Part shown: one piece after another, positions 3,555 through 28,435 of the stretch
Layout: every line of letters begins with the position of its first letter
Numbering within the stretch: position 1 is the stretch's first letter
NCBI RefSeq assembly: GCF_000166395.1
Contig: NC_014655.1
Span: 1 to 64,000, forward strand
DNA: 64,000 nucleotides
Origin: Leadbetterella byssophila DSM 17132
GTDB taxonomy: Bacteria; Bacteroidota; Bacteroidia; Cytophagales; Spirosomataceae
Direction: 5' to 3'
Position numbers and translations under genes: made by a program
Notes under the pieces: model-generated
The model's database searches: none
What the model saw: only the letters and a program-made list of their open reading frames with translations
Told to the model about the DNA's origin: nothing

Positions 3555-3570
3555 ATGCAAAGGTTTGCAT
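3555..3570. promoter_or_regulatory. Palindromic operator, site 1 (upstream of susC1)
   Basis: ATGCAAAGGTTTGCAT has perfect 7-base arms around a GG centre. The reverse complement is identical to site 2 at 8501 and matches site 3 at 18720 in all but one base. The form (16 bp, GCAAA/TTTGC arms) is typical of LacI-family operators, and a LacI gene is divergent from it. Its centre lies about 80 bases upstream of the putative -33 of susC1 and 90 bases from the LacI start codon. Confidence 0.75.
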
Positions 3571-3642
3571 TGAATTAAAAGAGGAATTGTATGTAAGATC
3601 ATTTGATTTCCCATTCTTTTGTATAGACTTCCTACAAGGAAT

Positions 3643-3674
3643 TTTGCTAATTGTGTTAAATATACAATTTTTTG
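3643..3674 (+). promoter_or_regulatory. Putative promoter of susC1
   Basis: TTTG at 3643-3646 and ATTTTTTG at 3667-3674 are separated by 20 bases, matching the Bacteroidota -33/-7 arrangement (TTTG, 19-21 bases, TAnnTTTG) with two mismatches in the -7 box. It predicts a leader of about 137 bases before susC1. Confidence 0.4.
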
Positions 3675-3700
3675 CGCGTCCTCGTGGTAGAAGGATAGAC

Positions 3701-3711
3701 AATCAACCTTA
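3701..3711 (+). promoter_or_regulatory. Shared leader motif, copy 1
   Basis: AATCAACCTTA: the TCAACCTTA core recurs at 8621 and 18795, in the leaders of the other two operator-controlled units. Here it precedes an 18-codon reading frame rather than susC1 itself. Confidence 0.35.
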
Positions 3712-3724
3712 ATAAATAGATAAT

Positions 3725-3781
3725 ATGAAACAAAAACTACTAGCTTCTTCATTTTTGTTTTCAAGGAAATCCCAGAGATAG
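3725..3781 (+). CDS. Possible 18-residue leader peptide (uORF) ahead of susC1
   Basis: ATG at 3725 opens a frame reading MKQKLLASSFLFSRKSQR before a TAG at 3779. The beginning (basic residues, then a hydrophobic stretch) resembles the first half of a signal peptide. It stands 13 bases after a TCAACCTTA motif; the same motif precedes the real starts of susC2 and the iol aldolase by 7-10 bases. It may be a regulatory uORF, the remnant of a former gene start, or chance. No homology is claimed. Confidence 0.25.
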   Translation: MKQKLLASSFLFSRKSQR

Positions 3782-3817
3782 GATCCATCAAATCAAAACC
3801 ATCAAAACTATTATTCA

Positions 3818-6790
3818 ATGAACGTATGTAAGCTATTTCAGCGGGCGTTGTCGCTCGTTTTGCTTTTGTTCGTCTACGCCGGAGTAATGGCTCAGTCGGA
3901 CGTAAAAGGTACAGTAACTGACGTTGCCGGAGAGGCTCTCCCCGGAGTAACCGTTTCTGTTAAAGGAGGAACGGTAGGTACAATGACGGATGTAGACGGG
4001 AATTTCACTATTCGTGCGCAAAGAGGTGAGACCCTGGTTTTTAGTTATGTGGGTTATGTGACCAAAGAGGCGTTAGTCAGCGGTACGGCTGTCAATGTCC
4101 AATTGGAAGAAGACCGCAAAACCCTAGATGAAGTAATTGTAGTAGGTTATGGTAGCATGGCCAAAAAGGACATCACCAGTTCCATTACTTCCATTAAACA
4201 AGAGGATTTTAACCAAGGGGTTTATACGGATCCTGCACAATTACTGCAAGGAAAAGTTCCCGGTTTAACTATCTCTAACAATAACAGTGATCCGAATGCC
4301 AGTCCATCTGTAACGCTCAGAGGGTCCTCGACCCTGCGTTCCGGTGCAGCTATGGAACCTTACTATGTTATTGATGGAGTTCCCGGAGCATCCTTAAGCC
4401 TGGTTTCACCTGATGATATCGTAAGTATAGATGTATTGAGAGATGCTTCTGCTACCGCAATTTACGGTTCGAAGGCTGCTAACGGTGTGATCATTGTTAC
4501 TACCAAAAGAGGTAAAAGCGGACAAGCATCAGTCACCTACAGCGGCTACGTGAGCGTTGACAAAATCAGGAAGCGTCTTGAGATGATGAATGCACAGCAG
4601 TACAAGGATTTCGTATTGAACAATGGCTTCTCTTTGGATCCTTATGATGATACCGGTGCAGATACTGATTGGCAAAAAGAGGTTTCTCGTACAGGATTCT
4701 CGCAAAACCATAATATTTCCATCAATGGAGGAAATGAAAAGACTCGTTATAGCACCAGTGTTAATTATCTAAGAAACCTAGGTGTAATCAAAGGTTCAGG
4801 TAGAGAAAGATACGTAGCAAGAGCATTTGTAGAAACTCAAGCTATGCAAGATAAACTGACCGTGTCCTTCAATGTGAATGCAAGTACTTCTACCAGAAAT
4901 AACGTACCTGCTCAAGGACAAGGTCTAAGCGTATATGATGCTATGTATTACTACTTGCCTATGTCCTCTGTAAAGCGACCAGACGGTAGCTGGTTTGAAT
5001 ATCCTCAAAGATCTCAATATGCAAACCCGGTTTCTTTACTTGAAGAGAGCACTATACTTTCCAAAGATAAGGTGATTCAGGCGCATGCGAGAGGTTCGTA
5101 TCAGATCTTTAAGGATTTGAGATATAATTTGGATTTGTCATACCAAAACTCTCAGTTTAACTATGCCAACTATTATACCTCTAAATCAATGGTGGCTGCG
5201 GGAATGAATGGTAAGTCCACCCGTTCAGCAGTAGAAGGGCAGCGTAAGGTAATGGAGATGAACTTGGCTTATGATAAGATTCTTAATAACCGTCATAAAG
5301 TAGGCTTACTAGGTGGATATTCTTGGGAAGAGAACAATGATAACGATGGGTTCCAGTTGACTACTTACAACTACTACAGTGATGACCTAAGCTATCACAA
5401 TCCAGGTATGGCAAACAACATTGACCTGAATGGATTTGGTGGGTACAACCTTTCTACCCTAAGAATGATCTCCTTCTATGGAAGGGCTAACTATTCCTTA
5501 GATGGTAAGTACTTGTTCCAAGCTACAGTTCGTAGAGATGGTTCATCTGCCTTTGGTGCGAATAACCGTTGGGCTACATTCCCTTCTGTATCTTTCGCTT
5601 GGAGAATTTCAGATGAAGAGTTTGCGAAAGGTACTTTTGACGACTTGAAATTCAGGATTGGTTATGGGGTGTCCGGTAACTCATTAGGATTTGATGTATT
5701 TACCGCTACACAAGTGTACGGAGCTACAGGCTGGTTCACAAACTCAGAAGGTAATCTAGTAAGAACCCTAGGTGCGGTGAGAAATTCTAACCCTGACTTG
5801 AGATGGGAAAAAACAGACATGTTAAACATAGGTTTGGATTTCGCTATCCTTAAGAACAGATTGAGTGGTACTATTGAGGTGTACAACAAGAATACGTCTG
5901 ATTTGATTTACGATTACCCGGTTTCTACTACCAAATATCTTTATAGCTATTTGACTACAAACGTAGGGGAAATCAATAACAAAGGGATAGAATTTACTTT
6001 GAGCGCGGTACCTGTGAAGAAGAAAAGCTTCTCTTGGAATACAGGTTTAACTCTTTCTCATAATAAGAACGTGGTGAAGAAGATCTCTAATCAGGAGTTC
6101 TCTGTGAATTATTTGAACCTTTCTAACTTAGATGGTGCAGGTCAATCAGGTATGACTCAGCAGAGAGTAATGGAAGGGTATCCTATAGGTACTTTCTATA
6201 CATGGGAATGGGCAGGCTATAATGACCAGGGAGTATCTGTTTATTATGTACATGACCCTGCTACAGGGGAGCGTACCGGTGAGTTAACGACTACCCCTCA
6301 GGATAAAGATAGAGCGTATACAGGTAGTGCTCAGCCGAAATTGGTGTTAGGTTGGAATAATAACTTCAACTATAAGCGTTTTGGACTAACAGCTACGTTC
6401 CAGGGATTATTTGGTAACAAAATCATGAACGGTACTCGTGCACGTCATTCAAATGTGGTAGGTAATGCGGGCAACAAAAACTTGCTGGCAGATGTACTGA
6501 AAACGGAAAAGGTTACCGACTACAATGCACACTTCTTATCTGATAGATATCTGGAGAAAGGAGATTATCTACGTCTTGCGCAGTTGTCCGGATCGTATTC
6601 CATCGGGAAGATTGGATCCGGTATCAAAAATGCCAGAGTGTTTATGACCGTAAATAATGCTTTTGTGTTGACCAAATATAAAGGTTTAGATCCTGAGGTG
6701 TTCTTGGGAGGTATTACTCCTGGTATTGATAACCGTCAGACTTATCCGCGTACACGTACAGTGATGTTTGGACTTAACCTTAATCTTTAA
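3818..6790 (+). CDS. SusC/RagA-family TonB-linked outer membrane receptor (susC1)
   Basis: A 990-residue outer-membrane importer of the SusC family. A signal peptide (cleavage near Ala25-Gln26 in VMAQ) is followed by a carboxypeptidase-regulatory-like domain (about 29-95), a TonB-box-like DEVIVVGYG, a plug domain (to about 225; includes YYVIDGVPG and the DASATAIYGSKAANGVIIVTT region, both typical of SusC) and a long beta-barrel ending in a C-terminal aromatic/hydrophobic strand (MFGLNLNL). It forms a pair with the SusD homologue five bases downstream. Upstream lie a LacI-type operator and promoter, and a terminator follows susD1, so susC1D1 is a self-contained transcription unit. Substrate is inferred only from the locus. 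Confidence 0.95.
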   Translation: MNVCKLFQRALSLVLLLFVYAGVMAQSDVKGTVTDVAGEALPGVTVSVKGGTVGTMTDVDGNFTIRAQRGETLVFSYVGYVTKEALVSGTAVNVQLEEDRKTLDEVIVVGYGSMAKKDITSSITSIKQEDFNQGVYTDPAQLLQGKVPGLTISNNNSDPNASPSVTLRGSSTLRSGAAMEPYYVIDGVPGASLSLVSPDDIVSIDVLRDASATAIYGSKAANGVIIVTTKRGKSGQASVTYSGYVSVDKIRKRLEMMNAQQYKDFVLNNGFSLDPYDDTGADTDWQKEVSRTGFSQNHNISINGGNEKTRYSTSVNYLRNLGVIKGSGRERYVARAFVETQAMQDKLTVSFNVNASTSTRNNVPAQGQGLSVYDAMYYYLPMSSVKRPDGSWFEYPQRSQYANPVSLLEESTILSKDKVIQAHARGSYQIFKDLRYNLDLSYQNSQFNYANYYTSKSMVAAGMNGKSTRSAVEGQRKVMEMNLAYDKILNNRHKVGLLGGYSWEENNDNDGFQLTTYNYYSDDLSYHNPGMANNIDLNGFGGYNLSTLRMISFYGRANYSLDGKYLFQATVRRDGSSAFGANNRWATFPSVSFAWRISDEEFAKGTFDDLKFRIGYGVSGNSLGFDVFTATQVYGATGWFTNSEGNLVRTLGAVRNSNPDLRWEKTDMLNIGLDFAILKNRLSGTIEVYNKNTSDLIYDYPVSTTKYLYSYLTTNVGEINNKGIEFTLSAVPVKKKSFSWNTGLTLSHNKNVVKKISNQEFSVNYLNLSNLDGAGQSGMTQQRVMEGYPIGTFYTWEWAGYNDQGVSVYYVHDPATGERTGELTTTPQDKDRAYTGSAQPKLVLGWNNNFNYKRFGLTATFQGLFGNKIMNGTRARHSNVVGNAGNKNLLADVLKTEKVTDYNAHFLSDRYLEKGDYLRLAQLSGSYSIGKIGSGIKNARVFMTVNNAFVLTKYKGLDPEVFLGGITPGIDNRQTYPRTRTVMFGLNLNL

Positions 6791-6795
6791 TCCTT

Positions 6796-8421
6796 ATGAA
6801 ATTTAAAACAATACTAGCTACAGCATTAGTGGTGGGAGGATGTACTGATCTAGATGTGAAGATTAAATCCCAGTACACTAGTTTCCCTGATTCGGAGACT
6901 GCTGCAGAAGCTGTATCTGCAGATATATATAATGCCTATAGAGGAGCCATGGGGGTGGCCCACTGGATGGTGAATACCTTGTCTTCTGATGAAGCAGTCA
7001 GTGTGGCAATGGGTTCTGATTACTATGACGGAGGTATTTACCGCCAATATGTAGTGCACGACTGGAACAGGGATAACGGGTATCTGAATACCATTTGGAA
7101 CTCAGCCATGACGGGTGTTACCTCATGTAATAAGGTACTGGCCTTATTAGGTAATGACGAGAGTGAAGTAGCAGCTCCGGTAAGAGCTATGCGTGCCTAT
7201 TACTTCTATATCTTATTAGAACACTTTGGTGCAGTGCCTTTGATTACCTCCATGGGCGATGAACAGCCTGACCGCGCTCCAAGAGCAGAAGTCGTGAGGT
7301 TTGTTGAATCAGAACTCTTAGCAGTAAAAGACAAATTAACCACAGATGTTAACGCGAGTACCTATGGTAAGGCCACGAAGTACATGGCTGAAGCGCTTTT
7401 AGCTAAGATTTATCTCAATTGGGCAGTATATACCGCTAGTGATGTAGCCTCTTATACTCCAAGTGCACCTAATGAAAAGTTGAACGAGGTGGTGAAGATG
7501 TGTGATGCCATCATAGCTTCAGGTAAATTTAATTTGAGTGATAGATACCTATTGAAGTTCAGACCGGATAATGGACCGCACATAAAGGATTTCATCTTTG
7601 TGATGCCATTTGATAGAGAAAGGCAACAAGGTATGACTTATGCCAGGTATTGGATTCATAGAAGTGCACAGAAACAGTTTGGGGATCTTCCTCAGAGTGT
7701 GGGTGGAACTCACCGTGTACTTCCGGAATTCCTGGCTAAGTTTAATTTACCTGGGGACCAAAGAAATGATCAGTTTATAGGCGGAAAACAATACTACTGG
7801 GAAAATTATGCGCCTACTAGTCGACCTTTCTTAATCAATACATCCAAAAGAGGTATAGATCAGGATTACAACGGTCCGGATGCTGATGATAAATTCGATT
7901 GGCAGGTGGAATTCTCTAAGGAAATAACACTTAGACCTGATGGGGGTCCTACCTTAAACGTAGGTAATGACCAAAAGGGAAGATCTATGGGATACAGATC
8001 CATCAAGTTCTATATGGATGTGAACGTAACGGCGGCTCAGAACCGTAGCCAAAGCAATGATGTACCCATCTTCCGTTTAGCTGATATTTACCTGATGAAG
8101 GCAGAAGCCATTCTGAGAGGAGCTACAGCTACAAATGGAGATTCACCTGCCTCATTAATCAATAAGATCAGAGCTTATGTAGGTGCGCCTGCCATCACAG
8201 GAACTCCTACTCTTGAAGATCTTTTAGATGAAAGAGCTAGAGAATTTGCAGATGAATCATGGAGAAGAAATGACCTGATCCGTTTTGGGAAGTTTGAAGA
8301 CAACTGGGGCTTTAAATCGCTCTATCCTGCAGGATTCACTGAGAAGTTCAGAAGGATATTTCCAGTGCCAAGAGATGTGATGAATGTTAACACCAATTGG
8401 TCGCAAAACCCTGGATATTAA
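6796..8421 (+). CDS. SusD/RagB-family surface glycan-binding lipoprotein (susD1)
   Basis: A 541-residue SusD homologue. The N-terminus has a lipoprotein signal with lipobox VVGGC (Cys16), so the mature protein is a lipoprotein. TPR-like helices follow (VRAMRAYYFYILLEHFGAVPLI is a classic SusD segment), and the C-terminal SusD/RagB region includes FRLADIYLMKAEAILRG, LLDERAREFADE and WRRNDLIRFGKF. It caps the SusC1 barrel and helps capture ligand. It lies five bases after susC1 and is followed by a strong intrinsic terminator. Confidence 0.95.
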   Translation: MKFKTILATALVVGGCTDLDVKIKSQYTSFPDSETAAEAVSADIYNAYRGAMGVAHWMVNTLSSDEAVSVAMGSDYYDGGIYRQYVVHDWNRDNGYLNTIWNSAMTGVTSCNKVLALLGNDESEVAAPVRAMRAYYFYILLEHFGAVPLITSMGDEQPDRAPRAEVVRFVESELLAVKDKLTTDVNASTYGKATKYMAEALLAKIYLNWAVYTASDVASYTPSAPNEKLNEVVKMCDAIIASGKFNLSDRYLLKFRPDNGPHIKDFIFVMPFDRERQQGMTYARYWIHRSAQKQFGDLPQSVGGTHRVLPEFLAKFNLPGDQRNDQFIGGKQYYWENYAPTSRPFLINTSKRGIDQDYNGPDADDKFDWQVEFSKEITLRPDGGPTLNVGNDQKGRSMGYRSIKFYMDVNVTAAQNRSQSNDVPIFRLADIYLMKAEAILRGATATNGDSPASLINKIRAYVGAPAITGTPTLEDLLDERAREFADESWRRNDLIRFGKFEDNWGFKSLYPAGFTEKFRRIFPVPRDVMNVNTNWSQNPGY

Positions 8422-8427
8422 TCGCTT

Positions 8428-8455
8428 AAGGCACCTCAATTGAGGTGCCTTTTTT
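8428..8455 (+). terminator. Rho-independent terminator after susC1D1
   Basis: AAGGCACCTC and GAGGTGCCTT form a perfect 10-bp stem with an AATT loop, followed by a run of six T. It separates susC1D1 from the second SusCD unit. Confidence 0.92.
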
Positions 8456-8500
8456 AATTTATTTTATTAATAATGGCCTAATTAATTTAATATCATATTT

Positions 8501-8516
8501 ATGCAAACCTTTGCAT
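8501..8516. promoter_or_regulatory. Palindromic operator, site 2 (upstream of susC2)
   Basis: ATGCAAACCTTTGCAT is the exact reverse complement of site 1, with perfect 7-base arms around CC. It ends 19 bases upstream of the putative -33 of susC2, which would place its centre near -65. Confidence 0.78.
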
Positions 8517-8535
8517 AAAATTATCCAAGTATTAA

Positions 8536-8567
8536 TTGGTTTCGTACAAGTTTATTGCCTTGTTTTG
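8536..8567 (+). promoter_or_regulatory. Putative promoter of susC2
   Basis: TTGG at 8536-8539 and TTGTTTTG at 8560-8567, spaced by 20 bases, match the Bacteroidota -33/-7 pattern with a single mismatch in the -7 box. Predicted leader about 65-70 bases. Confidence 0.45.
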
Positions 8568-8620
8568 TCCTGAAAACCAAACCTTAGAAAGACTTCGCGC
8601 GCCGGGTTATTCTTTAAAAA

Positions 8621-8631: not shown

Positions 8632-8640
8632 CTATTTATT

Positions 8641-11600
8641 ATGAAAATGATTTCCAAATTGCAGGCATTTTGCCTGCAAGGGAAAGGGTGGCTTGCTATT
8701 GCCTTTTTTGTCGGGCTAACTCTCCCTTTACATGCTCAGAAAGTGATTTCGGGTAAAGTCTCCTCAGGTGGTGAGGTTTTAGTAGGTGTCACAGTTAATG
8801 AAAAGGGTACTGCTAATTCTCACTTTACAGATGCAAATGGACAGTTCAAGATTACTGTCGCAAATGAAAATGCTATTCTAGTCTTCAGTTTTGTAGGTTT
8901 TAATACGGTCGAAGAAAGGGTAGGTAACCGTTCAGATTTAAACATACAAATGGCTGAAGCCAACAAGGACTTAGATGAAGTGGTGATCATAGGTTATGGT
9001 CAAGCGAAGAAAAGTGATTTAACGGGCTCTGTTTCCAGTCTAAATGCAGAATCTATCCAAAGGGCAAATAAAACAAATGCCTTTCAAGCTATGCAGGGTC
9101 AAGTGGCCGGGGTTAACCTTCAATTAACGGACAACAAACCGGGGGGAGCATTTAACGTACGTATCCGTGGTTCTAATACCATCAATTCCGGTGAATCTAT
9201 AGAAAATGCGGGATACAGTGCGGGACAAAACCCACTTTATATTGTGGATGGAATTTTCGTGAATGATATCTCATTCTTAAACCCGGCGGATATTGATAAG
9301 ATGGATATCCTAAAAGATGCTTCGGCAACTGCCATTTATGGTTCTAGAGGTACCAATGGTGTGGTGATAATCAAAACGAAAGGTGGAGCGAAAGGTCGAC
9401 TTTCTGTTTCATATGATAATTACTTTGGTACCAAAGAATCTTATAGAAGACCTGAGATGCTTCAGGGAGAAGATTTCGTGGACTACTTTAAAGATGCTGT
9501 GGTAGGTCTACAGTGGGCAGGAGGAAACAGAAACTTTACTCGTGCGGATGTAGATCTAAGCAAGTACATGCGTCCGAATGAATTAGAAAACATCAAGGCT
9601 GGAACATACACGGACTGGATCAACTTAGTAGATACCAAAGGTTTCCAAACCAATCACACATTAGGCCTTAGCGGTGGAAATGAAAATACCACTTTCGGTA
9701 TGGGTGTAGCATATACAAAAGACGAAGGAACTTTCCGGGGTGAGGCTTTTGAACGTTACACTATGCGTGCGAATTTAAATAGTAACATTCTTCCAAATGT
9801 TACATTGGGTTACACTAACTACATCGCTTTGAGCACCAGAGACGAAGGCAGTAAAGAAGGATTGAGATCAGCTTATCGTTTAAGGCCTACAGGTAGTGCT
9901 TATGATTCAGAAGGTAAATTGCAATTCTTCCCTCTTCAAGGCGAATCCTTTATAACAAACCCACTTTTTGAACCTGATAACTGGACCTTGCAGACCAGGA
10001 GTTTGAATTATCTAGGAAATCTATCTTTAGAAATCAGGCCAATCAAGAATCTGAAGATTTCAACTAATTTTTCTCCTAATGTAGAGTTTACAAGGGCCGG
10101 AGAATACATAGGTAGATATAGTAAAGCTACAAGCGGCAATCAGCAAAATACACGTGCGATCGTCAATAACCGCAATAGGATGTCCTATACCTGGGATAAT
10201 ATCATCAACTATGATTTGAAATGGAGTGATAAGCATCAGGTCTTGGCCACTTTGGTTTATTCCCAATTCTATGATAGAAATGAGAGATATTATGGAGAGA
10301 GAAGGAATTTTACTACTGATCAATACCTGTTTTATAATCAAGCGGCTGGTTCTGTAGTACAGGGTTTGACCAGTGGAATGTCAAAGCAAACCCTAGAGTC
10401 CTATACTGCACGTCTGAATTATAACTTCAATAGTAAGTATTTATTCACACTTACGGGTAGATATGATGGCTCTTCCATTTTAGCGGAAAATAACAAATGG
10501 GCCTTCTTCCCTTCTGCAGCATTTGCCTGGAGAATTATAGAAGAGGACTTCATGAGCTCTGTGCCTTCCTTGAGTGATTTGAAACTTAGATTAAGTTATG
10601 GGCAAACCGGCAATAACGGCACAGGAGGAGGTCTAGGACCATTGGCATCCCTGTCATTGATTGGAAGTAACTTTGTGAACATCGGTGATCAAGTGATTCA
10701 AACCGCATTTGTGAGTGGCCTTGCTAACCAGGATTTAACTTGGGAAAGAACCAAAGAGTGGAACATAGGTGCGGATTTTGGATTCCTGAAAAATAGAATC
10801 ACAGGTACTTTGGATCTTTATAATAGGAACAATACTGACATCATTTTCTTCCGCCCGGTTCCTAGTGCTACAGGTTATTCCGGAGTATTTGATAATGTGG
10901 GCGAGGCTACGAACAGGGGTATAGAATTAGGAATTACCTCGAAGAACTTGGTTAAAAAGGATTTCACCTGGAGTACCACCCTGAACTTCGCTGCGAACAG
11001 GAATAAGATCACCAAGCTTTATGGTGGTGTGGATGAGATATTATTCTCAGTTCAAGGGGGATCTTATGCACATAAGGTAGGACATCCTATCGGTTCTATT
11101 TATACATATGAATTTGATGGAATCTGGCAATTGAATGAGGTAGAGGAAGCCAAAAAATATGGTCAGCTTCCAGGGCAGGTTAAGGTGAAAGATATTGATG
11201 GAAATGGAATTATCAACGCTGACGATAGAACGGTTATAGGAAGTGCCATGCCTAAGTGGACAGGAGGTTTAACGAATACTTTTGATTATAAGAACATAGA
11301 CTTCTCCTTCTTCCTTCATACTTCACAAGGAGCTATAAGCAACTCCTATTTCCACTTATCTCATGGTGGTAGGTTTGATTCAACTCCGGCCAGGTTTAAT
11401 AGTGCCAAACTTAATTTTTGGACACCAGAGAATCCATCTAATGAATGGTATCAGCCTAGTAACCAAGGGCCGTATGTAGAAGCTATCCAATACATGGACG
11501 TGTCTTATGTGAAGGTGGGATATATCACCTTAGGATACACCATCAATCCTAGGTTCTTGGAGAGGTACAAGGTAAAAAGTGCCAGGCTTTATTTAACGGG

Positions 11601-11721: not shown

Positions 11722-11723
11722 TC

Positions 11724-18719: not shown

Positions 18720-18735
18720 ATGCAAACCTTTGCGT
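18720..18735. promoter_or_regulatory. Palindromic operator, site 3 (upstream of the iol operon)
   Basis: ATGCAAACCTTTGCGT equals site 2 except for one base in the right arm. It starts five bases after the PLC stop codon and 92 bases before the aldolase start. ATTG at 18755 lies at almost the same distance from this site as in the susC2 promoter, but a good -7 box at 20-base spacing is not present, so the promoter itself is not assigned. Confidence 0.7.
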
Positions 18736-19761: not shown

Positions 19762-20616
19762 ATGAGAGATACATTGATAGTAAAGCCGAATTATAAAGAG
19801 GAGGAATATATCCATATCACCCCTAGTTCGGCTGGATGGGAACACTTAAGTTTTGCTGCGCGAAACATGAAGAAAGGGGAGGTTTGGAAACATCAGACAG
19901 GAAACCATGAATATGCCATTATCCTTCTAGGTGGGGATTTTAGCGTAAAATCCAATAGGGGAGAATGGGTCACTGAGAACGGTAGGAAAGATGTGTTCTC
20001 CGGAATAGCTCACACCTTGTATTTACCTGCCAATACAGACTTTGAATTAGTGGCTGAAAGTGAAATATTGGATATAGCATACGGTTGGTGCAGGACAGAT
20101 AAGCAGTTGGATCCCGTATTTAAACTTCCATCTGAGGCTGAGATTGAGATTCGCGGAGGGGATAATGCTACACGTCAGATCAATAGTCTTGTGCAACCTG
20201 GATTTCCTTGCGACCGACTAGTAGCTGTAGAAGTTTATACTCCCTCAGGCAACTGGAGTAGCTTTCCTGCACATAAACATGATGAGAGAAAAGTAGATGA
20301 GAACGGAGTACTACTTGAGGCATGTTTGGAAGAAACCTATTTCTATAAGATTGATAAACCGCAAGGGTATGCCATCCAACAGGTCTATACAGATGACAGA
20401 AGCCTGGATGTGGTAAACGTAGTTAAACACAATGAAGTGGTTTTAGTGCCCAAAGGATATCATCCTGTAGTAGCCGGACACGGTTATAATGTGTATTATC
20501 TCAACTTCTTAGCGGGATCAGATCAGTCTTTGGCCAATACGCCTGACCCTGATCATGCATGGATTTTTGGTACATGGAAAGGCATTGATGAACGAATCCC
20601 AATGGTAAAGTCATGA
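19762..20616 (+). CDS. iolB: 5-deoxy-glucuronate isomerase IolB
   Basis: A 284-residue cupin-fold isomerase that converts 5-deoxy-D-glucuronate to 2-deoxy-5-keto-D-gluconate in inositol breakdown. The metal-binding cupin motif is PAHKHDERKVD with a downstream glutamate pair (LEETYFYKI) and a C-terminal histidine region (VLVPKGYHPVVAGHGYNVYYLN), all characteristic of IolB. Length is close to the usual ~270. It overlaps iolC by four bases (ATGA). Confidence 0.95.
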   Translation: MRDTLIVKPNYKEEEYIHITPSSAGWEHLSFAARNMKKGEVWKHQTGNHEYAIILLGGDFSVKSNRGEWVTENGRKDVFSGIAHTLYLPANTDFELVAESEILDIAYGWCRTDKQLDPVFKLPSEAEIEIRGGDNATRQINSLVQPGFPCDRLVAVEVYTPSGNWSSFPAHKHDERKVDENGVLLEACLEETYFYKIDKPQGYAIQQVYTDDRSLDVVNVVKHNEVVLVPKGYHPVVAGHGYNVYYLNFLAGSDQSLANTPDPDHAWIFGTWKGIDERIPMVKS

Positions 20617-21617
20617 AATACGATATAGTAGCAATGGGTAGGTCTTCCATAGATCTTTACTCACAAAACATAGGCGCGGATTTTGTAGATATAAAAGGTT
20701 TTGATGCTTTTGTAGGCGGATCACCTTTAAATATCGTTACAGGCTGTCAAAGGCTAGGTTTAAACACAGCCTTATTAACGGGAGTAGGTGCAGATAAAGT
20801 AGGAGATTTTATTTTGAACTTCTTGAAAAATGAGGGAATAGAGACCAAATTTATTCCTACCATCCCGCACGCCAGATCTTCAGCTGTCATCCTAGGTATT
20901 CAGCCTCCTGACACCTTCCCTTTGGTTTATTACAGACATAATGCGGCTGATACCCACGTAAATATAGATCATGTTAACGCCGTGAATATGGAGGAGGTTC
21001 GATTATTCGAAGTGTCAGGTACAGCACTTAGTCTGGAGCCTAGCAGATCTGCGGTGTTCCACGCCATGGAAAGGGCTAATGCCGCAGGAGTGACAACGGT
21101 CCTGGATATCGACTTCAGAGCGGATCAATGGAGTGATTTAAGATCTTTCGGTATCATGGTTAGAGCTTTACTTCCTAAAGTGAAAATCGCAATAGGTACA
21201 GAGGAAGAGATACTAGCGGCCATGCTTAAGGATTCCCGACAGGTGGAAATCACCCACCAACAAATATCTGCACCAACCATTCATGGAGATGTAGAAGAAG
21301 CCATTCAAGGTCTCATGGACTTAGGTGTAGAGATTCTATTGGTGAAAAGAGGATCTAAAGGGGTTAGTGTATACCAAAAGGGCCAAGAGACCTTTAATGT
21401 GCCGGGATTTCCCGTAGAGCCTTTAAATGTGCTAGGTGCTGGTGATGCATTTGCTTCAGGTTTCATCTATGGTTATCTACAAGGATGGGATCTCTATAAA
21501 TCTTGCAGAATGGGGAATGCATCAGGGGCACAGGTAGTCCTTCAGCCAGGGTGCGCCAATTTCATGCCTACTCTGGAAGAATCCATGAAATTTATTGAAG
21601 AACACGGAGGTTTTTAA
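20613..21617 (+). CDS. iolC: 5-dehydro-2-deoxygluconokinase IolC (PfkB family)
   Basis: A 334-residue PfkB-family sugar kinase that phosphorylates 2-deoxy-5-keto-D-gluconate with ATP. Seen: N-terminal GRSSIDLYSQNIG, the GGSPLNIVTGCQRLG substrate-side motif, and the C-terminal PfkB signature NVLGAGDAFASGFIYG with the catalytic Asp of GAGD. It lacks the extra C-terminal aldolase-like domain found in some IolC fusions, which agrees with a separate aldolase gene at 18812. Four-base overlap with iolB; 10 bases to the iolD start. Confidence 0.95.
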   Translation: MKYDIVAMGRSSIDLYSQNIGADFVDIKGFDAFVGGSPLNIVTGCQRLGLNTALLTGVGADKVGDFILNFLKNEGIETKFIPTIPHARSSAVILGIQPPDTFPLVYYRHNAADTHVNIDHVNAVNMEEVRLFEVSGTALSLEPSRSAVFHAMERANAAGVTTVLDIDFRADQWSDLRSFGIMVRALLPKVKIAIGTEEEILAAMLKDSRQVEITHQQISAPTIHGDVEEAIQGLMDLGVEILLVKRGSKGVSVYQKGQETFNVPGFPVEPLNVLGAGDAFASGFIYGYLQGWDLYKSCRMGNASGAQVVLQPGCANFMPTLEESMKFIEEHGGF

Positions 21618-21627
21618 TCATTCGCTT

Positions 21628-23478
21628 ATGAAACTAACAGTAGCTCAAGCTTTGATCCGCTTTTTGGATCAGCAATATGTAGAAAGAGATGGAGTAGAAC
21701 ATAAGTTCTTTGCCGGTTGTTTTGGGATTTTTGGCCACGGAAACGTGGGGGGGATAGGCCAGGCTTTATTTGAAAATCCTGAATTCAGGTATTATCAGGC
21801 GAGAAACGAGCAAGCTATGGTTCATACGGCTGTGGCCTATAGCAAGATGAAGAATAGATTAGAAACCTTTGCATGTACCAGCTCTATAGGACCTGGTGCC
21901 ACAAATATGGTTACCGGTGCAGCTCTAGCTACCATAAACCGTATACCGGTCTTGCTACTTCCAGGTGATATCTTTGCTACGAGACATATAGGTCCGGTGC
22001 TTCAGCAATTGGAAGATCCTTCTAATGCAGATGCTTCCGTGAATGATACCTTTAAGCCGGTTTCAAGGTTCTGGGATAGAGTTAATAGACCGGAGCAATT
22101 GATCTCCTCCCTCCTCCAAGCTATGCGAGTCCTGACCAGTCCTGCTGAAACAGGTGCAGTAACCATTTGTTTACCTCAGGATGTACAGGCGGAAGCTTAT
22201 GATTATCCGGAAGAGTTCTTTAAGAAGAGGGTTTGGTATATGGGTAGACCATTACCGGATGCTCAACTTTTACAGAGAGCTGCCCAGATCATAAAAGAGG
22301 CAAAGAAGCCAATGATTATTGCAGGAGGTGGTGTTATTTATTCTGAAGCTTGCTCTACACTAGCTGAATTCAGTAAGAATACGGGAATTGCCGTGGCTGA
22401 AACCTTTGCCGGAAAAGGGAGTTTGAATTTTGATCATCCTTTGAATTTGGGAGCGGCTGGTGCTACCGGCACGGAAGGAGCAAATGCCTATGCAGCAGAG
22501 GCGGATGTGGTAATCGGTGTAGGGACAAGATACAGTGATTTTACGATGGCTTCCCACACGGCCTTTCAAAATCCCGATGTCAAGTTTATAAATATCAATA
22601 TCGCTGAGTTTGACGCTTATAAGCAAAGTGCGTTGCCTCTTACCGGTGATGCGAAGACTACCTTAGAGGCTTTGGGACGCCTTCTAGGCGGTTACAAAAC
22701 CTCAAAGGAATACCAGGAGCAAGCGGCAGCTTATAATGTTAGTTGGGATCAAAAAGTGGCTGAGGCCTATGCCGTAGTAGCAGAGGATTCTATGTCCCAG
22801 GCAGAAGTGATTGGGGCTGTAAATTCATTTGCAGGTCCAAAAGATGTGATGGTCTGTGCAGCGGGAAGTATGCCGGGCGACTTGCACAAGTTATGGAGAT
22901 GCACAGATCCTAAAAACTTCCATATGGAATACGGCTATTCCACTATGGGCTATGAAATTGCCGGAGGCTTAGGGGTAAAAATGGCTGATCCTTCTAGAGA
23001 AGTGTATGTGATGGTGGGTGATGGAAGTTATCTAATGCTGTCCTCAGAAATAGTAACTGCCGTTCAGGAAGGTGTAAAATTGACCATCGTTTTAATCAAT
23101 AATCATGGATACGCAAGTATAGGTGGACTTTCAAAGTCTTTAGGCAGCGAAGGTTTTGGTACTCAATACAGATACAGAGGAGAGAAACATTTTGACGGAG
23201 ACGCTTTACCTTATGATTTGGCCACTAATGCAGAGAGTTTAGGGGCTACGGTTCTTAGAACAAGTAATGAGTCCAGTTTTAAAGCAGCGCTTGAACAAGC
23301 CAAAAAGAATGCAAACACAACGGTCATCTATATAGAAACTCCTCCTGAAAGAAAAATGGCCGGATATGGTCATGCTTGGTGGGAAGTACCCGTATCAGAG
23401 GTATCAAACACCGCAAGTATTCAGGAGGCCTACGAAAAACTAACCTTAAATAAAAAGCGCCAGAGATGGCATTTGTAA
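21628..23478 (+). CDS. iolD: 3D-(3,5/4)-trihydroxycyclohexane-1,2-dione hydrolase IolD
   Basis: A 616-residue thiamine-diphosphate enzyme that opens the inositol ring. N-terminal ThDP-PYR domain (ARNEQAMVHTAVAYSKM contains the catalytic Glu), a central domain (KKPMIIAGGGVIY), and a C-terminal ThDP-PP domain with GDGSYLMLSSEIVTA...INNHGY, the GDG-NN cofactor motif. The start at 21628 begins MKLTVAQALIRFLDQQY, which matches the usual IolD beginning (TTAQALVKFLNQQY-like). An upstream in-frame ATG at 21595 would overlap iolC and is less likely. Six bases separate it from the symporter gene. Confidence 0.96.
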   Translation: MKLTVAQALIRFLDQQYVERDGVEHKFFAGCFGIFGHGNVGGIGQALFENPEFRYYQARNEQAMVHTAVAYSKMKNRLETFACTSSIGPGATNMVTGAALATINRIPVLLLPGDIFATRHIGPVLQQLEDPSNADASVNDTFKPVSRFWDRVNRPEQLISSLLQAMRVLTSPAETGAVTICLPQDVQAEAYDYPEEFFKKRVWYMGRPLPDAQLLQRAAQIIKEAKKPMIIAGGGVIYSEACSTLAEFSKNTGIAVAETFAGKGSLNFDHPLNLGAAGATGTEGANAYAAEADVVIGVGTRYSDFTMASHTAFQNPDVKFININIAEFDAYKQSALPLTGDAKTTLEALGRLLGGYKTSKEYQEQAAAYNVSWDQKVAEAYAVVAEDSMSQAEVIGAVNSFAGPKDVMVCAAGSMPGDLHKLWRCTDPKNFHMEYGYSTMGYEIAGGLGVKMADPSREVYVMVGDGSYLMLSSEIVTAVQEGVKLTIVLINNHGYASIGGLSKSLGSEGFGTQYRYRGEKHFDGDALPYDLATNAESLGATVLRTSNESSFKAALEQAKKNANTTVIYIETPPERKMAGYGHAWWEVPVSEVSNTASIQEAYEKLTLNKKRQRWHL

Positions 23479-23484
23479 AAGAAT

Positions 23485-25068
23485 ATGAATACTCTAACCA
23501 TTATCACCTTTGTTGGGTTTACTCTACTGACGGGTGCATATGCATACTTTAAAACCCGAAAGGAAAACCTGGAAACGCAGGAAGGGTATTTCTTGGGAGG
23601 AAGGAGCTTGACCGGAATAGTCATTGCCGCTTCCATGATCATGACCAATATTTCAACAGAACATTTGGTAGGAATGAATGGCTCTGCTTATAAGAATGGA
23701 TTTATCATTGTAGCCTGGGAAGTAACCTCAGCACTGGCATTGATCGTGGCGGCAGTTTACTTTGTGCCTAGGTACCTAAGAATGGGTCTGACCACCATCC
23801 CCGAATATTTGGAGAAAAGGTTTGATACCGTGACCCGATCCATGATCTCTCTATTCCTATTGGTATCCTTCGCGGTAACTCTTTTGCCCATAGTTCTTTA
23901 TACCGGCGCAATAAACATTGAAAGCATATTCGATATTTCAGAGGTACTGCAGATCAGCAAAGAGACAGGTTTGTGGATGACCATAGTGATTGTGGGAGTG
24001 ATCGGCTCTTTATATGCCGTCTTCGGAGGATTAAAAGCGGTGTCATTCTCAGACGTGATTTATGGCTACGGTTTGTTTTTGGGAGGTTTGATGATTCCGG
24101 TTTTGGCCTTGTGGCATATTGGGGATGGAAATATGCTCACAGGTTTTGTAAAGGTGTTTGAGAACAGTCCTGAGAAGTTCAGTGTCATAGGGTCTGAAGA
24201 TTCAGTTATGCCCTTCAGTACCTTATTCACAGGTTTGATCATAAACCAGCTATACTTCTGGTGTATGAATCAAACCATAGTTCAAAGGGTATTAGGAGCA
24301 AAAAATCTGGAAGAGGCACAAAAAGGCCTACTTTTTACCGGATTGGCGAAAATATTAATTCCTTTTGTCATCGTGCTGCCGGGAGTTATAGCCTTTTATT
24401 ATTTCGGGGAGCAGTATTACGAGGAGCAAGATAGTGTCTATCCCGCCTTGGTGAAAAAAGTAATGCCCGTAGCATTCTTAGGTTTCTTTGCTGCCGTGAT
24501 TATGGGAGCTGTATTGAGTACTTTTAATGCAGTTTTAAACAGTGCGTCTACCATTTTTAGTATAGATGTGTACAAGAGAATGATAGACGTCAATGCCAGC
24601 GATAAGAAGCTGGTAGTGATGGGAAAACTCACTGCTGCAATATTGGCCATTACATCTATTATTGCGGCTCCTTTTGTGGCTAATGCACCGGAAGGTTTGT
24701 TCCAATTATTGCAACAGCTTAACGGAATATTCTTTATACCTATCGCCTCTATCATCTTAGCTGGTTTCTTTTTCCCTCAGATTTCAGCAGCGGGAGCAAA
24801 AGTTAGTTTATTGACCGGCTTCCTGTTCTATGTAACCTGCATTTATATCTATCCAGTAGATATTCATTTTATACATCTGTGGGGTATTGAATTCTTATTG
24901 AATCTGGCGGTGATGTTTGCCGTGTCAAAGTTCTATCCTCAGCCAGTGATGGAATTACAGCCATCCAGAGAAGTGGTGGAGCTGAAAGCATGGAAATACA
25001 CCAAGCCATTTGCCATCTTTTTGGTGATCATTACTATAGGTATCTACATCTTCTTAGGAAATATTTAA
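23485..25068 (+). CDS. Sodium:solute symporter (SSS/SLC5 family), probable myo-inositol transporter
   Basis: A 527-residue inner-membrane protein with about 13-14 hydrophobic segments. Family motifs include GGRSLTGIVIAASMIMTNIS near the N-terminus, YAVFGGLKAVSFSDVIYGYG, and the middle segment LYFWCMNQTIVQRVLGAKNLEEAQKG, characteristic of SSS proteins. It is embedded between iolD and iolA, so inositol or a close derivative is the likely substrate. It would import what the outer-membrane SusCD systems and periplasmic enzymes release. Confidence 0.9.
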   Translation: MNTLTIITFVGFTLLTGAYAYFKTRKENLETQEGYFLGGRSLTGIVIAASMIMTNISTEHLVGMNGSAYKNGFIIVAWEVTSALALIVAAVYFVPRYLRMGLTTIPEYLEKRFDTVTRSMISLFLLVSFAVTLLPIVLYTGAINIESIFDISEVLQISKETGLWMTIVIVGVIGSLYAVFGGLKAVSFSDVIYGYGLFLGGLMIPVLALWHIGDGNMLTGFVKVFENSPEKFSVIGSEDSVMPFSTLFTGLIINQLYFWCMNQTIVQRVLGAKNLEEAQKGLLFTGLAKILIPFVIVLPGVIAFYYFGEQYYEEQDSVYPALVKKVMPVAFLGFFAAVIMGAVLSTFNAVLNSASTIFSIDVYKRMIDVNASDKKLVVMGKLTAAILAITSIIAAPFVANAPEGLFQLLQQLNGIFFIPIASIILAGFFFPQISAAGAKVSLLTGFLFYVTCIYIYPVDIHFIHLWGIEFLLNLAVMFAVSKFYPQPVMELQPSREVVELKAWKYTKPFAIFLVIITIGIYIFLGNI

Positions 25069-25078
25069 AAAACATATT

Positions 25079-26554
25079 ATGGAATTATTAAAGAATTATA
25101 TTGGGGGTAAGTGGCTAGATAGTAGAGAAGCAGCATTCTCTTCCGTGGTGAACCCTGCTACACAGGAAATATTGGGCAGAGTGCCTGTGGGACCTGGCAC
25201 TTCTACAGATGTTGATGAGGCGGTGAAAGCTGCTCAAGTAGCTTTTAAAGAATGGTCTCAAATACCCGTTATGCAAAGGGTGCAGCCTCTATATAAATTA
25301 AAACAATTAATAGAGGATAACCTTGATGATCTGGCCAATACCATCACCTTAGAATGTGGTAAGACGAAGGTGGAATCTCTAGGGGAATTACAAAGGGCCA
25401 TTGAAAATATTGAAGCTGCCTGTGCAACTCCACTTTTGATACAAAGTGAATTTTCAGAAAATATAGCAAGAGGTGTGGATGAGTTCATGATTCGTCAACC
25501 TCTAGGAGTGTGCGCATGTATCGCACCATTTAACTTCCCAGGGATGATCCCGTTCTGGTTTCTTCCTTACGCCATAGCATGTGGTAATACCTTTGTACTA
25601 AAGCCATCTGAAAAAGTGCCTTTGACCATGATGAAGGTATTTAGCCTCATCGAAAAGATTGGCTTACCTGCGGGTGTAGTGAGTTTAGTGCATGGAGGGA
25701 AAGAGACTGTTGATGCCTTACTTGATCATCCGGATATTAAGGCCATTAGCTTTGTGGGCTCAACCGCTATAGCAAAATACGTGTATTCCCGTGGTGCAGC
25801 AAACGGCAAGCGTGTTCAGGCTCAAGGTGGAGCGAAAAATCCGGTAGTTATTCTTCCGGATGCCGACTTAGAAGTTACCTCAAAGGTGATTGCAGATAGT
25901 GTGTACGGTTGTGCCGGGCAAAGATGCCTAGCCGCATCCACCATCATTTCCGTAGGTGATGAAAAGGGTGAGATCAAAGATGCCTTATATGAAACCGCAA
26001 AACAAAGAACTACGGGCTTTGGCTTATTGCCTGATGTAGAGATGGGTCCTGTTATCTCCAGAGAGAGCAAAAAACGTATAGAAAGTTTGATCCAACAAGG
26101 TATTCAGGAAGGTGGACAAGTATTGTTAGACGGTAGAAATACCCAGATATCTGGATTCGAAAAAGGTAATTTTCTTCGCCCTACCATACTCGAAAATATT
26201 CCTCTAAACGGTGAATTGATCAAAACAGAAATCTTTGGGCCGGTAATGACTTTATTGTCCATGAAGACAGTAGAAGATGCTCTCGCCTTTATCAATGGAA
26301 ACAGATACGGTAATATGGCTTGTATCTTCACTACCAGTGGAGCATCAGCAAGAAAGTTTAGATCAGAAGCAAATGCTGGAAATATAGGCGTCAATATTGG
26401 CGTAGCTGCCCCTATGGCCCAATTCCCTTTCAGTGGTTGGAACGAAAGTTTCTTTGGCGACTTGCATGGTCAAGGTAGACATGCGATAGAGTTCTTTACC
26501 CAAACTAAAATAGTAATCGAACGCTGGCCGAAAGAATGGTCGCGTAAATTTTAA
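25079..26554 (+). CDS. mmsA: Methylmalonate/malonate-semialdehyde dehydrogenase (acylating) IolA/MmsA
   Basis: A 491-residue aldehyde dehydrogenase that turns malonic semialdehyde (and methylmalonate semialdehyde) plus CoA and NAD into acetyl-CoA (or propionyl-CoA), the last inositol step. N-terminal YIGGKWLDS, the NAD-binding FVGSTAIAKYVYSRGAANGKR, and the catalytic cysteine in GCAGQRCLAAST, a signature of the CoA-acylating subgroup. C-terminal MAQFPFSGWNESFFGDLHGQG is also typical. Ten bases after the symporter and four before iolE. Confidence 0.94.
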   Translation: MELLKNYIGGKWLDSREAAFSSVVNPATQEILGRVPVGPGTSTDVDEAVKAAQVAFKEWSQIPVMQRVQPLYKLKQLIEDNLDDLANTITLECGKTKVESLGELQRAIENIEAACATPLLIQSEFSENIARGVDEFMIRQPLGVCACIAPFNFPGMIPFWFLPYAIACGNTFVLKPSEKVPLTMMKVFSLIEKIGLPAGVVSLVHGGKETVDALLDHPDIKAISFVGSTAIAKYVYSRGAANGKRVQAQGGAKNPVVILPDADLEVTSKVIADSVYGCAGQRCLAASTIISVGDEKGEIKDALYETAKQRTTGFGLLPDVEMGPVISRESKKRIESLIQQGIQEGGQVLLDGRNTQISGFEKGNFLRPTILENIPLNGELIKTEIFGPVMTLLSMKTVEDALAFINGNRYGNMACIFTTSGASARKFRSEANAGNIGVNIGVAAPMAQFPFSGWNESFFGDLHGQGRHAIEFFTQTKIVIERWPKEWSRKF

Positions 26555-26558
26555 GCGC

Positions 26559-27458
26559 ATGATAAAGATAGCGAATGCCCCATGTTCTTGGGGTGCTTTA
26601 GAATTTGACCTGGAAGCGGAAGCACCTGGCTTCGAGCAGGTATTAGACGAAATGAAAGATACTGGTTATTTAGGGACAGAGCTAGGCGACTGGGGTTTCA
26701 TGCCTACAGAGCCTAGCGCACTCCGGAAGGAAATTGCAGGTAGAGAATTAGATCTATTGGGCGCATTTGTTCCTGTAAATTTTGTAGATGCCTCTGCACA
26801 TGAAGAAGGAATAGCTTCCGCCCTTCGTGTAGCCGGACTGATGCATGATGCTGGATATTCCCACGCATTTATAGTGCTGGCTGATGAAAATGGATCCGTG
26901 CCCACACGCACTAAGAATGCCGGTAGAATAAGTGCTGAAATGGGACTTAGTGGGGAGCAGTGGGATACGTTTGCTAAAGGAGTGGAAGCCGTAGCAAAAG
27001 CCGTTAAAGATAAGTATGGCATGAGATGTGTATTCCATCATCACTGTGCCGGGTATGTGGAAACCCCTCAAGAGCTGGAACAACTACTACAAAGGACAGA
27101 CCCTTCTTTACTGGGGCTGTGCTTTGATACAGGTCACTACGCATTTGGAGGTGGAGATCCACTGGAAGGCTTGCAGAAATGGAAGGACAGAATCTGGCAT
27201 GTGCATTTTAAAGATTATAGCGAGGTAGTGGGAGCGCAAGGAAGAGAAAAGGAATGGGACTATTTTGAAGCCGTAAAAAATGGAGTTTTCTGTGAGTTAG
27301 GCAAAGGTTCCGTAGACTTTTCCGGTGCCAAAAAGATATTAGAAAACATGCAGTATGAAGGATGGATAGTGGTAGAGCAAGATGTTTTACCGGGTATGGG
27401 AAGTCCGAAGATCTGTGCAGATAATAATCGTCAATTTTTGAAAACTATTGGACTATGA
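26559..27458 (+). CDS. iolE: myo-Inosose-2 dehydratase IolE
   Basis: A 299-residue TIM-barrel (xylose-isomerase-like) protein that dehydrates scyllo-inosose (2-keto-myo-inositol) to the trihydroxycyclohexanedione. Typical IolE segments: APCSWGALEF at the start, GAFVPVNF, VFHHHCAGYVETPQELEQLL, LCFDTGHYAFGGGDP and WHVHFKDY, containing the metal-binding Glu, Asp and His residues. It overlaps iolG by four bases. Confidence 0.95.
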   Translation: MIKIANAPCSWGALEFDLEAEAPGFEQVLDEMKDTGYLGTELGDWGFMPTEPSALRKEIAGRELDLLGAFVPVNFVDASAHEEGIASALRVAGLMHDAGYSHAFIVLADENGSVPTRTKNAGRISAEMGLSGEQWDTFAKGVEAVAKAVKDKYGMRCVFHHHCAGYVETPQELEQLLQRTDPSLLGLCFDTGHYAFGGGDPLEGLQKWKDRIWHVHFKDYSEVVGAQGREKEWDYFEAVKNGVFCELGKGSVDFSGAKKILENMQYEGWIVVEQDVLPGMGSPKICADNNRQFLKTIGL

Positions 27459-28435
27459 AATTAGGATTAATAGGCTTCGGCCGAATAGGTAAAATACACT
27501 ACTATAATATTTTGCAAAGAATACCGGAGGCAGAAATTGTGATGGTTTCTGATCCCATGGCAGATCTAAGTGCGATAGGCACAGCTATAGGTACTCCTGA
27601 TGATATATTAAACCATGAGGAGATTGAAGCGGTGATCATCTGCTCTCCAACTGATACTCATGCTGATCTGGTAGAAGCTTGCGCCAAAAAAGGAAAGCAT
27701 ATCTTCTGTGAAAAACCTTTGGACCTTTCTCTGGAAAGAATCAGTGCAGCCATCAAATTAGTAGAGGAGCATGGAGTAAAGTTGATGATGGGCTTTAACA
27801 GAAGATTTGATGCTAACTTTTTAAAGATTAGAGAGCTTGTCTTAAACGGAAGCGTGGGAGAGCCTCAGATAGTGAAGATCACCAGCAGAGATCCCGGTCC
27901 CCCACCTTTGACCTATTTGAGGGAGTCAGGAGGGATGTTCCTAGATATGAGTATCCATGATTTTGATATGGCAAGATACATCATGGGCAAAGAAGTGACG
28001 GGCGTATTTGCACATGCTGCTGTGTTCTGTGGAGAGGACATCGAAGCCGCGGGAGATATAGATACGGCTATCATCACTTTGACCTTTGAAGATCAATCTA
28101 TGGCAGTGATTGATAATAGCAGGAAAGCAGTGTATGGATATGACCAAAGGCTAGAAGTATTTGGATCAAAGGGAATGGTTAATGTAGATAATAATACCCC
28201 TGATAAGCATCATTTCTATAATGAGCAAGGGGTGCATTCCGCATTGCCTCTACACTTCTTCCTAGAGAGATATACGGAATCTTATCTTTTGGAGATGCGA
28301 CAATTCATTAATGCATTGAAAAACGGTGGTAAAGTGCCGGTTGGAGGAGAGGATGCCCGTCAAGCCACAAGAATCGCATTAGCCGCTAAAAAGTCAGTGA
28401 AAGAGAAACGCTGGGTTTCCTTAGAAGAAATCTAG
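27455..28435 (+). CDS. iolG: Inositol 2-dehydrogenase IolG (Gfo/Idh/MocA family)
   Basis: A 326-residue NAD-dependent dehydrogenase for the first step, myo-inositol to 2-keto-myo-inositol. Rossmann motif GFGRIGKIHY, the conserved EKPLDLSLERI with the catalytic Lys, and DMSIHDFDMARYIMG, which holds the Asp-x3-His pair of inositol dehydrogenases. Length is near the family norm (~335). It is the last gene of the operon; a strong terminator begins four bases after the stop codon. Confidence 0.92.
   Translation: MKLGLIGFGRIGKIHYYNILQRIPEAEIVMVSDPMADLSAIGTAIGTPDDILNHEEIEAVIICSPTDTHADLVEACAKKGKHIFCEKPLDLSLERISAAIKLVEEHGVKLMMGFNRRFDANFLKIRELVLNGSVGEPQIVKITSRDPGPPPLTYLRESGGMFLDMSIHDFDMARYIMGKEVTGVFAHAAVFCGEDIEAAGDIDTAIITLTFEDQSMAVIDNSRKAVYGYDQRLEVFGSKGMVNVDNNTPDKHHFYNEQGVHSALPLHFFLERYTESYLLEMRQFINALKNGGKVPVGGEDARQATRIALAAKKSVKEKRWVSLEEI

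Follow-up and report, generated by a model that had tools for sequence, protein, structure and literature searches.

What does a bacterium consume when the genes of a polysaccharide utilization locus (PUL) lie directly against a pathway for myo-inositol, and do the two halves belong together? This question is raised by Leadbetterella byssophila DSM 17132, the type strain of which is recorded as coming from cotton-waste mushroom compost (PMC3072089). The window analysed in this study comprises the first 64,000 nucleotides of its contig NC_014655.1 (assembly GCF_000166395.1), which opens with dnaA and carries, from 2459 to 28435, a LacI-family regulator, two SusCD pairs, a set of enzymes and the inositol catabolism (iol) genes. 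The two adjacent SusC/SusD pairs, with a carbohydrate-active enzyme (GH105) linked to them, identify a PUL, which also encodes a lyase-like protein at 13361, a DUF4861 protein and a secreted phosphatidylinositol-specific phospholipase C (PI-PLC). Our comparisons support the view that the PUL and the inositol pathway constitute one conserved and apparently co-regulated system. On balance, we lean towards a single LacI-controlled PUL that would serve a glycan in which myo-inositol, in most cases phosphorylated, bears uronic acid; the headgroup of plant glycosyl inositol phosphoryl ceramides (GIPCs) is the most likely candidate.

Linkage of the PUL with inositol catabolism

Gene identities, the operator, the PUL-iol linkage and the exchange of iol described below were all obtained by sequence comparison. 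The 13361 protein was searched in 390 genomes of the same order and 395 of the same class, of which 67 and 12, respectively, were positive, and gene neighbourhoods were compared in 23 stretches, covering 22 of the 24 close lyase relatives (all but G531 and G1080) and the distant relative G752. Four genomes of another family (G605, G714, G767 and G579) were observed to harbor the colinear arrangement iolJBCD-SSS-iolAEG, SusC2, SusD2, lyase and DUF4861, with nearly all genes showing 50-76% identity to those of the window, and with GH105 next in three of the four. LacI genes with 54-55% identity to that of the window adjoin two of these sister loci (G714 and G767), and the SSS symporter orthologue lies within iol in all four. 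SusC2 and SusD2 are 59-63% and 61-64% identical, respectively, in the four sister loci and in G565, while SusC2 of Salegentibacter is 56% identical, with a clade support of 1.0. From a third family, G1039 displays iolB, D, A, E and G adjoining relatives of SusC1D1 (55-56%), the lyase and GH105.

The halves are also joined by a common operator, a 16-base palindrome of the form ATGCAAA(N2)TTTGCAT. The preliminary description had reported three copies linking them, and these were recovered, two exact and one with a single mismatch, all intergenic. Allowing up to two mismatches, 4 matches were observed in the window against 0.39 expected, and none of 100 shuffled sequences reached 4; the fourth match, at 18006 with two mismatches, falls within the PI-PLC gene. 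Throughout the genome of 4,059,653 bp, only one further match with at most one mismatch was detected, at 3,940,474. The stretch between SusD1 and operator copy 2 contains a hairpin with T residues after it, suggesting that the locus is probably divided into three transcription units. The operator precedes both susC2 and iolJ in all four sister loci, and weaker sites with two mismatches precede susC1 in G721 and G634; it was not found at up to two mismatches in G565, G1039, Salegentibacter, G033, G021 and G158. The same description had made its proposal depend on the two halves being linked elsewhere, and the four colinear, operator-bearing sister loci show such linkage. Because colinearity and operators recur in another family, the link between PUL and iol, its regulation included, is to all appearance old and maintained by selection.

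In other genomes a different inositol gene takes the place of iol. Myo-inositol oxygenase (MIOX, PF05153), which converts myo-inositol to glucuronate, replaces iol near the lyase in G565, G721, G634, G715, G741, G033, G021 and Salegentibacter lacus (L098), the family call having an E-value near 1e-109 in the two members scanned. MIOX and lyase are separated by 56-81 bp in G721, G715, G741 and G634. The Salegentibacter lacus locus runs in one direction through LacI, SusC2 (56%), SusD2, lyase, DUF4861, GH105, a phosphatase, MIOX and an SSS symporter (63%), with a PI-PLC gene facing this run; an SSS orthologue (62%) is beside MIOX in L212 as well. Since MIOX and iol have different products but a common input, it is inositol, and not uronate metabolism, that ties these loci together.

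For distribution analysis we considered 72 hand-chosen genomes, namely our own, 24 others with a close lyase, 16 of the roughly 51 whose only lyase is a distant one, and 20 lyase-negative genomes of the same family together with 11 others of the same order. IolD above cut-off was found in 15 of them, MIOX in 47, both in none and neither in 10. One of the two lies within 13 kb of the lyase in 12 of the 24 close-lyase relatives, compared with 0.11 expected from genome sizes when kinship is ignored, and these cases are spread over seven family labels or named genera. In two other families of the order, an inositol route was present in 6/6 lyase-positive and 2/11 sampled lyase-negative genomes (Fisher p 0.002, kinship ignored). 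We consider it very likely from these patterns that the inositol comes from the PUL's own imported substrate. Even if GIPCs are not the substrate, the fact that MIOX takes the place of iol next to members of one lyase family points strongly, at the genomic level, to inositol as a PUL product.

Proposed substrate and its alternatives

From these data we infer each enzymatic step, the order of the steps and the substrate. SusCD1 and SusCD2 would take up the headgroup, and the 13361 protein would eliminate the sugar at O-4 of the uronic acid, after which GH105 would take off the unsaturated acid for processing by KduI and a KduD-like enzyme, whose genes are side by side at 1.717 Mb of the same genome. 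The PI-PLC may open inositol phosphodiesters bound to lipid, a phosphatase would release inositol, and the SSS symporter would bring it in for catabolism by IolGEDBCJA. In GIPCs, the further sugar is linked at O-4 of the acid and the acid at O-2 of inositol; with such linkages, elimination by a lyase followed by GH105 acting on an alpha-1,2-linked unsaturated acid would be apt. Plant GIPCs are described in the literature as built on inositol phosphate that bears a uronic acid, to which another sugar is attached (PMC7980081, PMC9113257), Man-GlcA-IPC (mannose, glucuronic acid and inositol phosphoryl ceramide) being dominant in Arabidopsis vegetative tissue (PMC7980081). G565 and G021 carry GH92, an alpha-mannosidase family, in their lyase loci, and such an enzyme would suit this mannose. 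GIPCs are reported to be the predominant outer-leaflet lipid of the plant plasma membrane (PMC7980081), to account for some 64% of all plant sphingolipids and to serve plants as a phosphate source under deprivation (PMC9113257).

A uronosyl-inositol conjugate is the likely substrate in our judgement, and the chances that it derives from GIPCs appear evenly poised. Of the preliminary claim that the substrate contains both uronic acid and phospho-inositol, the uronic acid and inositol parts are very probable, and the phosphate part is less supported, as PI-PLC is mostly missing from the sister genomes and the window locus has no phosphatase, yet phosphatases do occur in sister loci. The accompanying argument, that uronic acid must leave before the phospholipase acts, is insecure, as the Streptomyces Ca-dependent PI-PLC, a member of the same Pfam family, is able to work without a free 2-OH.

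The 13361 protein has 583 residues, and H167, N170, H171, R172, Y218, R266, Q267 and D268 are invariant in the alignment of 23 lyase relatives, only one of which touched Lyase_8_N (E 0.046). Foldseek searches with its poor predicted model placed chondroitinase 9o3q best (E 2.5e-4) and alginate lyase 3afl third (E 1.5e-3), among epimerases, GH76, complement proteins and many helical-toroid proteins. It is a fair guess that the protein acts as a lyase, and it probably represents a new lyase family. More distant relatives (33-35%) in L214-L216 stand alone or in PULs of different make-up, and therefore the substrate need not be common to the whole family.

The PI-PLC scored 411 bits against a Pfam cut-off of 29.9 and has PDB relatives 5fyo and 3h4w; H11, H41, E56, D58 and H99 are invariant among the 25 sequences of alignment A1, and we take these residues to be catalytic. 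Judged by its distribution, it is a variable add-on outside the conserved core, and it is tied to the system through the window, Salegentibacter and the SusC1-type transporter. Among the best 80 of at least 593 confirmed PI-PLC matches (14 of the 80 with less than 20 kb of sequence), 37 loci encode a SusC that shares 40% identity or more with SusC1, accompanied in 35 cases by a matching SusD, and SusC1 relatives at 42% or more occur in 10 of the 23 lyase neighbourhoods. In the SusC tree, the nearest to SusC1 is the SusC of G1039, from a locus with lyase and iol (support 1.0); SusC1 belongs to a clade of 75 leaves (support 1.0) that contains 63 PI-PLC-linked SusCs, and the group at 40% or more (47 leaves) is unresolved with SusC1 (support 0.10). 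As the tree was built only from PI-PLC and lyase neighbourhoods, with at least one locus entered twice (L041 and L217 look like one and the same contig of 239,424 bases), clade purity proves little.

Phosphatases recur around these genes and fit a phosphorylated inositol. A secreted PF00149 phosphatase lies between SusD2 and the lyase in G605, G714, G767, G579 and G565, and its relatives are near SusC1-type PI-PLC genes, e.g. in L041; in numerous Flavobacterium-like loci, a second PF00149 type lies next to PI-PLC, and it is also present in L098 and G1039, and alkaline phosphatases were noticed in G1039 and L037.

Other PI-PLC and phosphatase loci displayed further arrangements. At L210:12463-14229 (genome 2,802,462-2,804,228), a PF00149 phosphatase of the PI-PLC-linked type follows a frame of 1329 residues and faces a PUL with SusCD and GH105-like genes. 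Near the PI-PLC of L218 (G718) are genes for a relative (43%) of the alcohol dehydrogenase at 1490-2488 and for a protein with 31% likeness to IolE, and this locus may hold a further route for inositol products. In L222 (G194) and L223 (G579), the neighbours of PI-PLC are a phosphatase of the second type, a frame of 619-641 residues related to alkaline phosphatases, and SusCD pairs of more distant kinship. PHP-domain-like secreted proteins were found near PI-PLC at L037:12558-13757, L035:11153-12433 and L219:2850-4100, the first assigned by Pfam and the other two by sequence likeness.

Several observations weigh against a uronosyl-inositol PUL as proposed here. The 13361 protein, as a single sequence or as the 23-member alignment, matched no sequence family of Pfam, NCBIfam or PDB, and its model, predicted from a 2-row alignment with helices in its N-terminal half and beta structure in its C-terminal half, reached only pLDDT 52 and pTM 0.49. 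In 12 of the 24 close-lyase genomes, the inositol gene lies away from the lyase, and in G738, G688, G700 and G762 neither SusCD nor inositol genes are alongside. Within the window's own family, an inositol route occurs in 19 of 20 lyase-negative genomes versus 25 of 25 with a close lyase (own included); such routes being common there anyway, presence at genome level says little in this family. Only one of the four sister genomes encodes a member of the PI-PLC family, and there at an unlinked site; 79 of the best 80 PI-PLC loci are without the lyase set and MIOX in their 10 kb flanks (L098 being the exception), and iolD was not found in any of these 80. No phosphatase of the PF00149 or PF00245 types is present at the window locus, and the nearest relative (40%) of the linked phosphatase lies at 2.80 Mb, in another PUL. 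Finally, the GH28 gene in the lyase locus of G021 is compatible with pectin too.

That gene, and the closest solved GH105 relative 3k11, which we take to be an enzyme of a rhamnogalacturonan-I PUL, would agree with a mixed plant-debris regulon, in which lyase, DUF4861 and GH105 act on pectin-type oligosaccharides and iol on free inositol, under co-regulation only. However, the window PUL has no pectinase other than GH105, another family retains both the linkage and the operator, and MIOX substitutes for iol instead of the route being lost, and we regard this explanation as unlikely. We would likewise give a low probability to a uronosyl-inositol or other uronosyl-cyclitol glycan of non-GIPC origin (microbial, algal or a free glycoside), with PI-PLC merely adding access to phosphatidylinositol. 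The optional nature of PI-PLC and the occurrence of the gene set in Salegentibacter, a name that we understand to hint at a saline habitat, are in line with such a glycan, but phosphatases recur in the loci, and we count against it that we know of no equally abundant source of uronosyl-inositol, no search aimed at one having been made.

Quite improbable, in our estimation, is a phosphate-scavenging (PUS) system with added carbon genes, where PI-PLC and SusC1D1 would provide phosphorus nutrition. It draws on the Flavobacterium johnsoniae PUSI, in which SusCD, PI-PLC-C1 and a metallophosphatase are reported with strong low-phosphate induction (PMC8115612), and on the well-supported clade that SusC1 shares with the 63 PI-PLC-linked SusCs; LacI and the common operator in place of sigma/FecR genes, the lack of a phosphatase at the locus and the complete carbon pathway downstream all oppose it, and on these grounds a pure phosphate-scavenging reading was set aside. 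A locus that combines GlcA lyase-like, GH105 and PI-PLC genes might also be expected of an arabinogalactan-protein PUL, whose lyase strips capping sugars from glucuronic acid (GlcA) while PI-PLC cuts glycosylphosphatidylinositol anchors. Here, galactanase and arabinosidase are absent in 3555-28435, and such a substrate would yield inositol in trace amounts only, which is at odds with the complete inositol pathways linked in loci that lack PI-PLC; we set this reading aside as highly improbable.

With the uronosyl-inositol PUL retained, a broader generalization may be offered only tentatively and with some doubt: Bacteroidota may possess a modular PUL family for glycosyl-inositol-phosphate headgroups, on plant GIPCs, with a core of SusCD, a new uronate lyase family, DUF4861 and GH105, interchangeable iol/MIOX and phosphatases, and an optional Ca-type PI-PLC, whose lyases would split 4-linked GlcA of the GIPC headgroup. 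If true, this would provide a new lyase family, a candidate function for DUF4861, reagents with which GIPC headgroups could be trimmed and a genetic marker of bacteria that feed on plant sphingolipids.

Gene identities and neighbouring genes

Table 1. Features of the PUL-iol locus of L. byssophila (window positions)
Feature	Position	Strand	Evidence or remark
LacI-family regulator, candidate reader of the common operator	2459..3472	-	Pfam LacI and periplasmic-binding domain
Operator copy 1	3555..3570		exact palindrome, between lacI and susC1
SusC1, TonB-dependent transporter	3818..6790	+	Pfam
SusD1, surface lipoprotein of pair 1	6796..8421	+	Pfam
Operator copy 2	8501..8516		exact palindrome, upstream of susC2
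SusC2	8641..11721	+	Pfam
SusD2	11724..13316	+	Pfam
Putative uronate lyase, helical toroid and beta region	13361..15112	+	weak fold match; no Pfam family
DUF4861 lipoprotein-like putative enzyme	15109..16365	+	Pfam 347.6 bits
GH105 unsaturated uronyl hydrolase	16362..17681	+	Pfam GH88/105 285.6 bits
Secreted Ca-dependent-type PI-PLC (PI-PLC-C1, PF16670)	17641..18714	+	Pfam 411 bits
Operator copy 3	18720..18735		one mismatch, upstream of iolJ
IolJ-type class II aldolase	18812..19750	+	Pfam, general subfamily model; role from context
IolB (Pfam KduI/IolB)	19762..20616	+	TIGR04378, over cut-off
IolC (Pfam PfkB)	20613..21617	+	TIGR04382, over cut-off
IolD (Pfam TPP enzyme)	21595..23478	+	TIGR04377 951 bits, cut-off 715
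SSS symporter, probably for myo-inositol	23485..25068	+	Pfam; NCBIfam SSS model passed; PDB SGLT relatives
IolA, methylmalonate-semialdehyde dehydrogenase (MMSDH) type (Pfam Aldedh)	25079..26554	+	TIGR01722, over cut-off
IolE-like dehydratase (Pfam AP_endonuc_2)	26559..27458	+	TIGR04379 208 bits, cut-off 290
IolG, inositol 2-dehydrogenase (Pfam GFO/IDH)	27455..28435	+	TIGR04380, over cut-off

The genes named in the preliminary description were each present as an open frame at its place and, except for the 13361 protein with its lack of a Pfam family, consistent with Pfam (Table 1). This extends to the GH105 start, as the frame is listed from TTG at 16263 and the translation indicates the ATG at 16362, in agreement with that description. 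Its 'full' Iol operon stands in part: IolB, IolC, IolD, IolG and IolA (MMSDH model) reached their NCBIfam cut-offs, but IolE fell below its cut-off and the 18812 aldolase passed only the general ketose-bisphosphate aldolase subfamily model, so both are named from gene context, the IolE gene position being kept in G605, G714, G767, G579 and G1039. The genes from 13361 to 18714 touch or overlap, as do most iol genes. Structural relatives of GH105 include 3k11 (E 5.7e-150) and 4ce7, an unsaturated rhamnoglycuronyl hydrolase. The DUF4861 protein had no PDB match, its predicted model reached pLDDT 38, and the term is absent from the literature searched.

On the flanks, a zinc alcohol dehydrogenase gene (1490-2488, plus strand) has its start touching the dnaA stop and is convergent with lacI; its product scored 121.7 bits against the model for IolM, scyllo-inosose dehydrogenase, well short of the cut-off of 450. 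Directly 3' of iolG, two near-identical group II intron reverse transcriptase/maturase frames lie in tandem on the plus strand (28882-30330 and 30996-32270), the first assigned by Pfam and the second by its translation.

Comparison with described systems

In the literature searched, which leaves most subscription journals outside its coverage, we found no described bacterial system for consuming GIPCs, no PUL with myo-inositol catabolism and no Bacteroidetes MIOX with phospholipase C. The preliminary statement that no PUL of this composition had been described needs qualification, as PUSI, with SusCD, PI-PLC-C1 and a metallophosphatase, is in print; it holds in so far as the accessible part of that paper mentions neither uronic-acid nor inositol genes for PUSI (PMC8115612). 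PUSI of F. johnsoniae (Fjoh_4168-4173) is nevertheless the nearest described system, sharing with the window a SusCD-like pair and a secreted PI-PLC-C1 (PF16670), and holding a PF00149 phosphoesterase besides (PMC8115612). The same arrangement was observed in F. johnsoniae CI04 (L095), where uronic-acid enzymes and inositol catabolism were not seen and where SusC is 30% identical to SusC1 of the window. PUSI further differs in its extracytoplasmic function (ECF) sigma factor and its control by low phosphate (PMC8115612). At the window, no linked metallophosphatase and no ECF sigma/anti-sigma (FecR) genes were found, LacI being the only regulator among the genes scanned, and thus the locus is not classed as a PUSI-type system. 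By contrast, L222 and L223 are PUSI-like clusters within the window's order.

According to a survey, 3% of 2,227 Bacteroidetes species and 49% of 55 Spirosomaceae have iol clusters, with the core order BCDE in Cytophagia (PMC9430895). The window shares this order, and its iol genes differ from the surveyed clusters in being tied, through operator and gene placement, to SusCD, lyase, GH105 and PI-PLC, the accessible part of the survey giving no link to a PUL (PMC9430895). Rhamnogalacturonan- and glucuronan-type PULs likewise display a lyase-like protein, GH105 and SusCD; the locus of L. byssophila is distinguished from them by a lyase-like protein outside the tested Pfam, NCBIfam and PDB families and by the inositol pathway attached to it.

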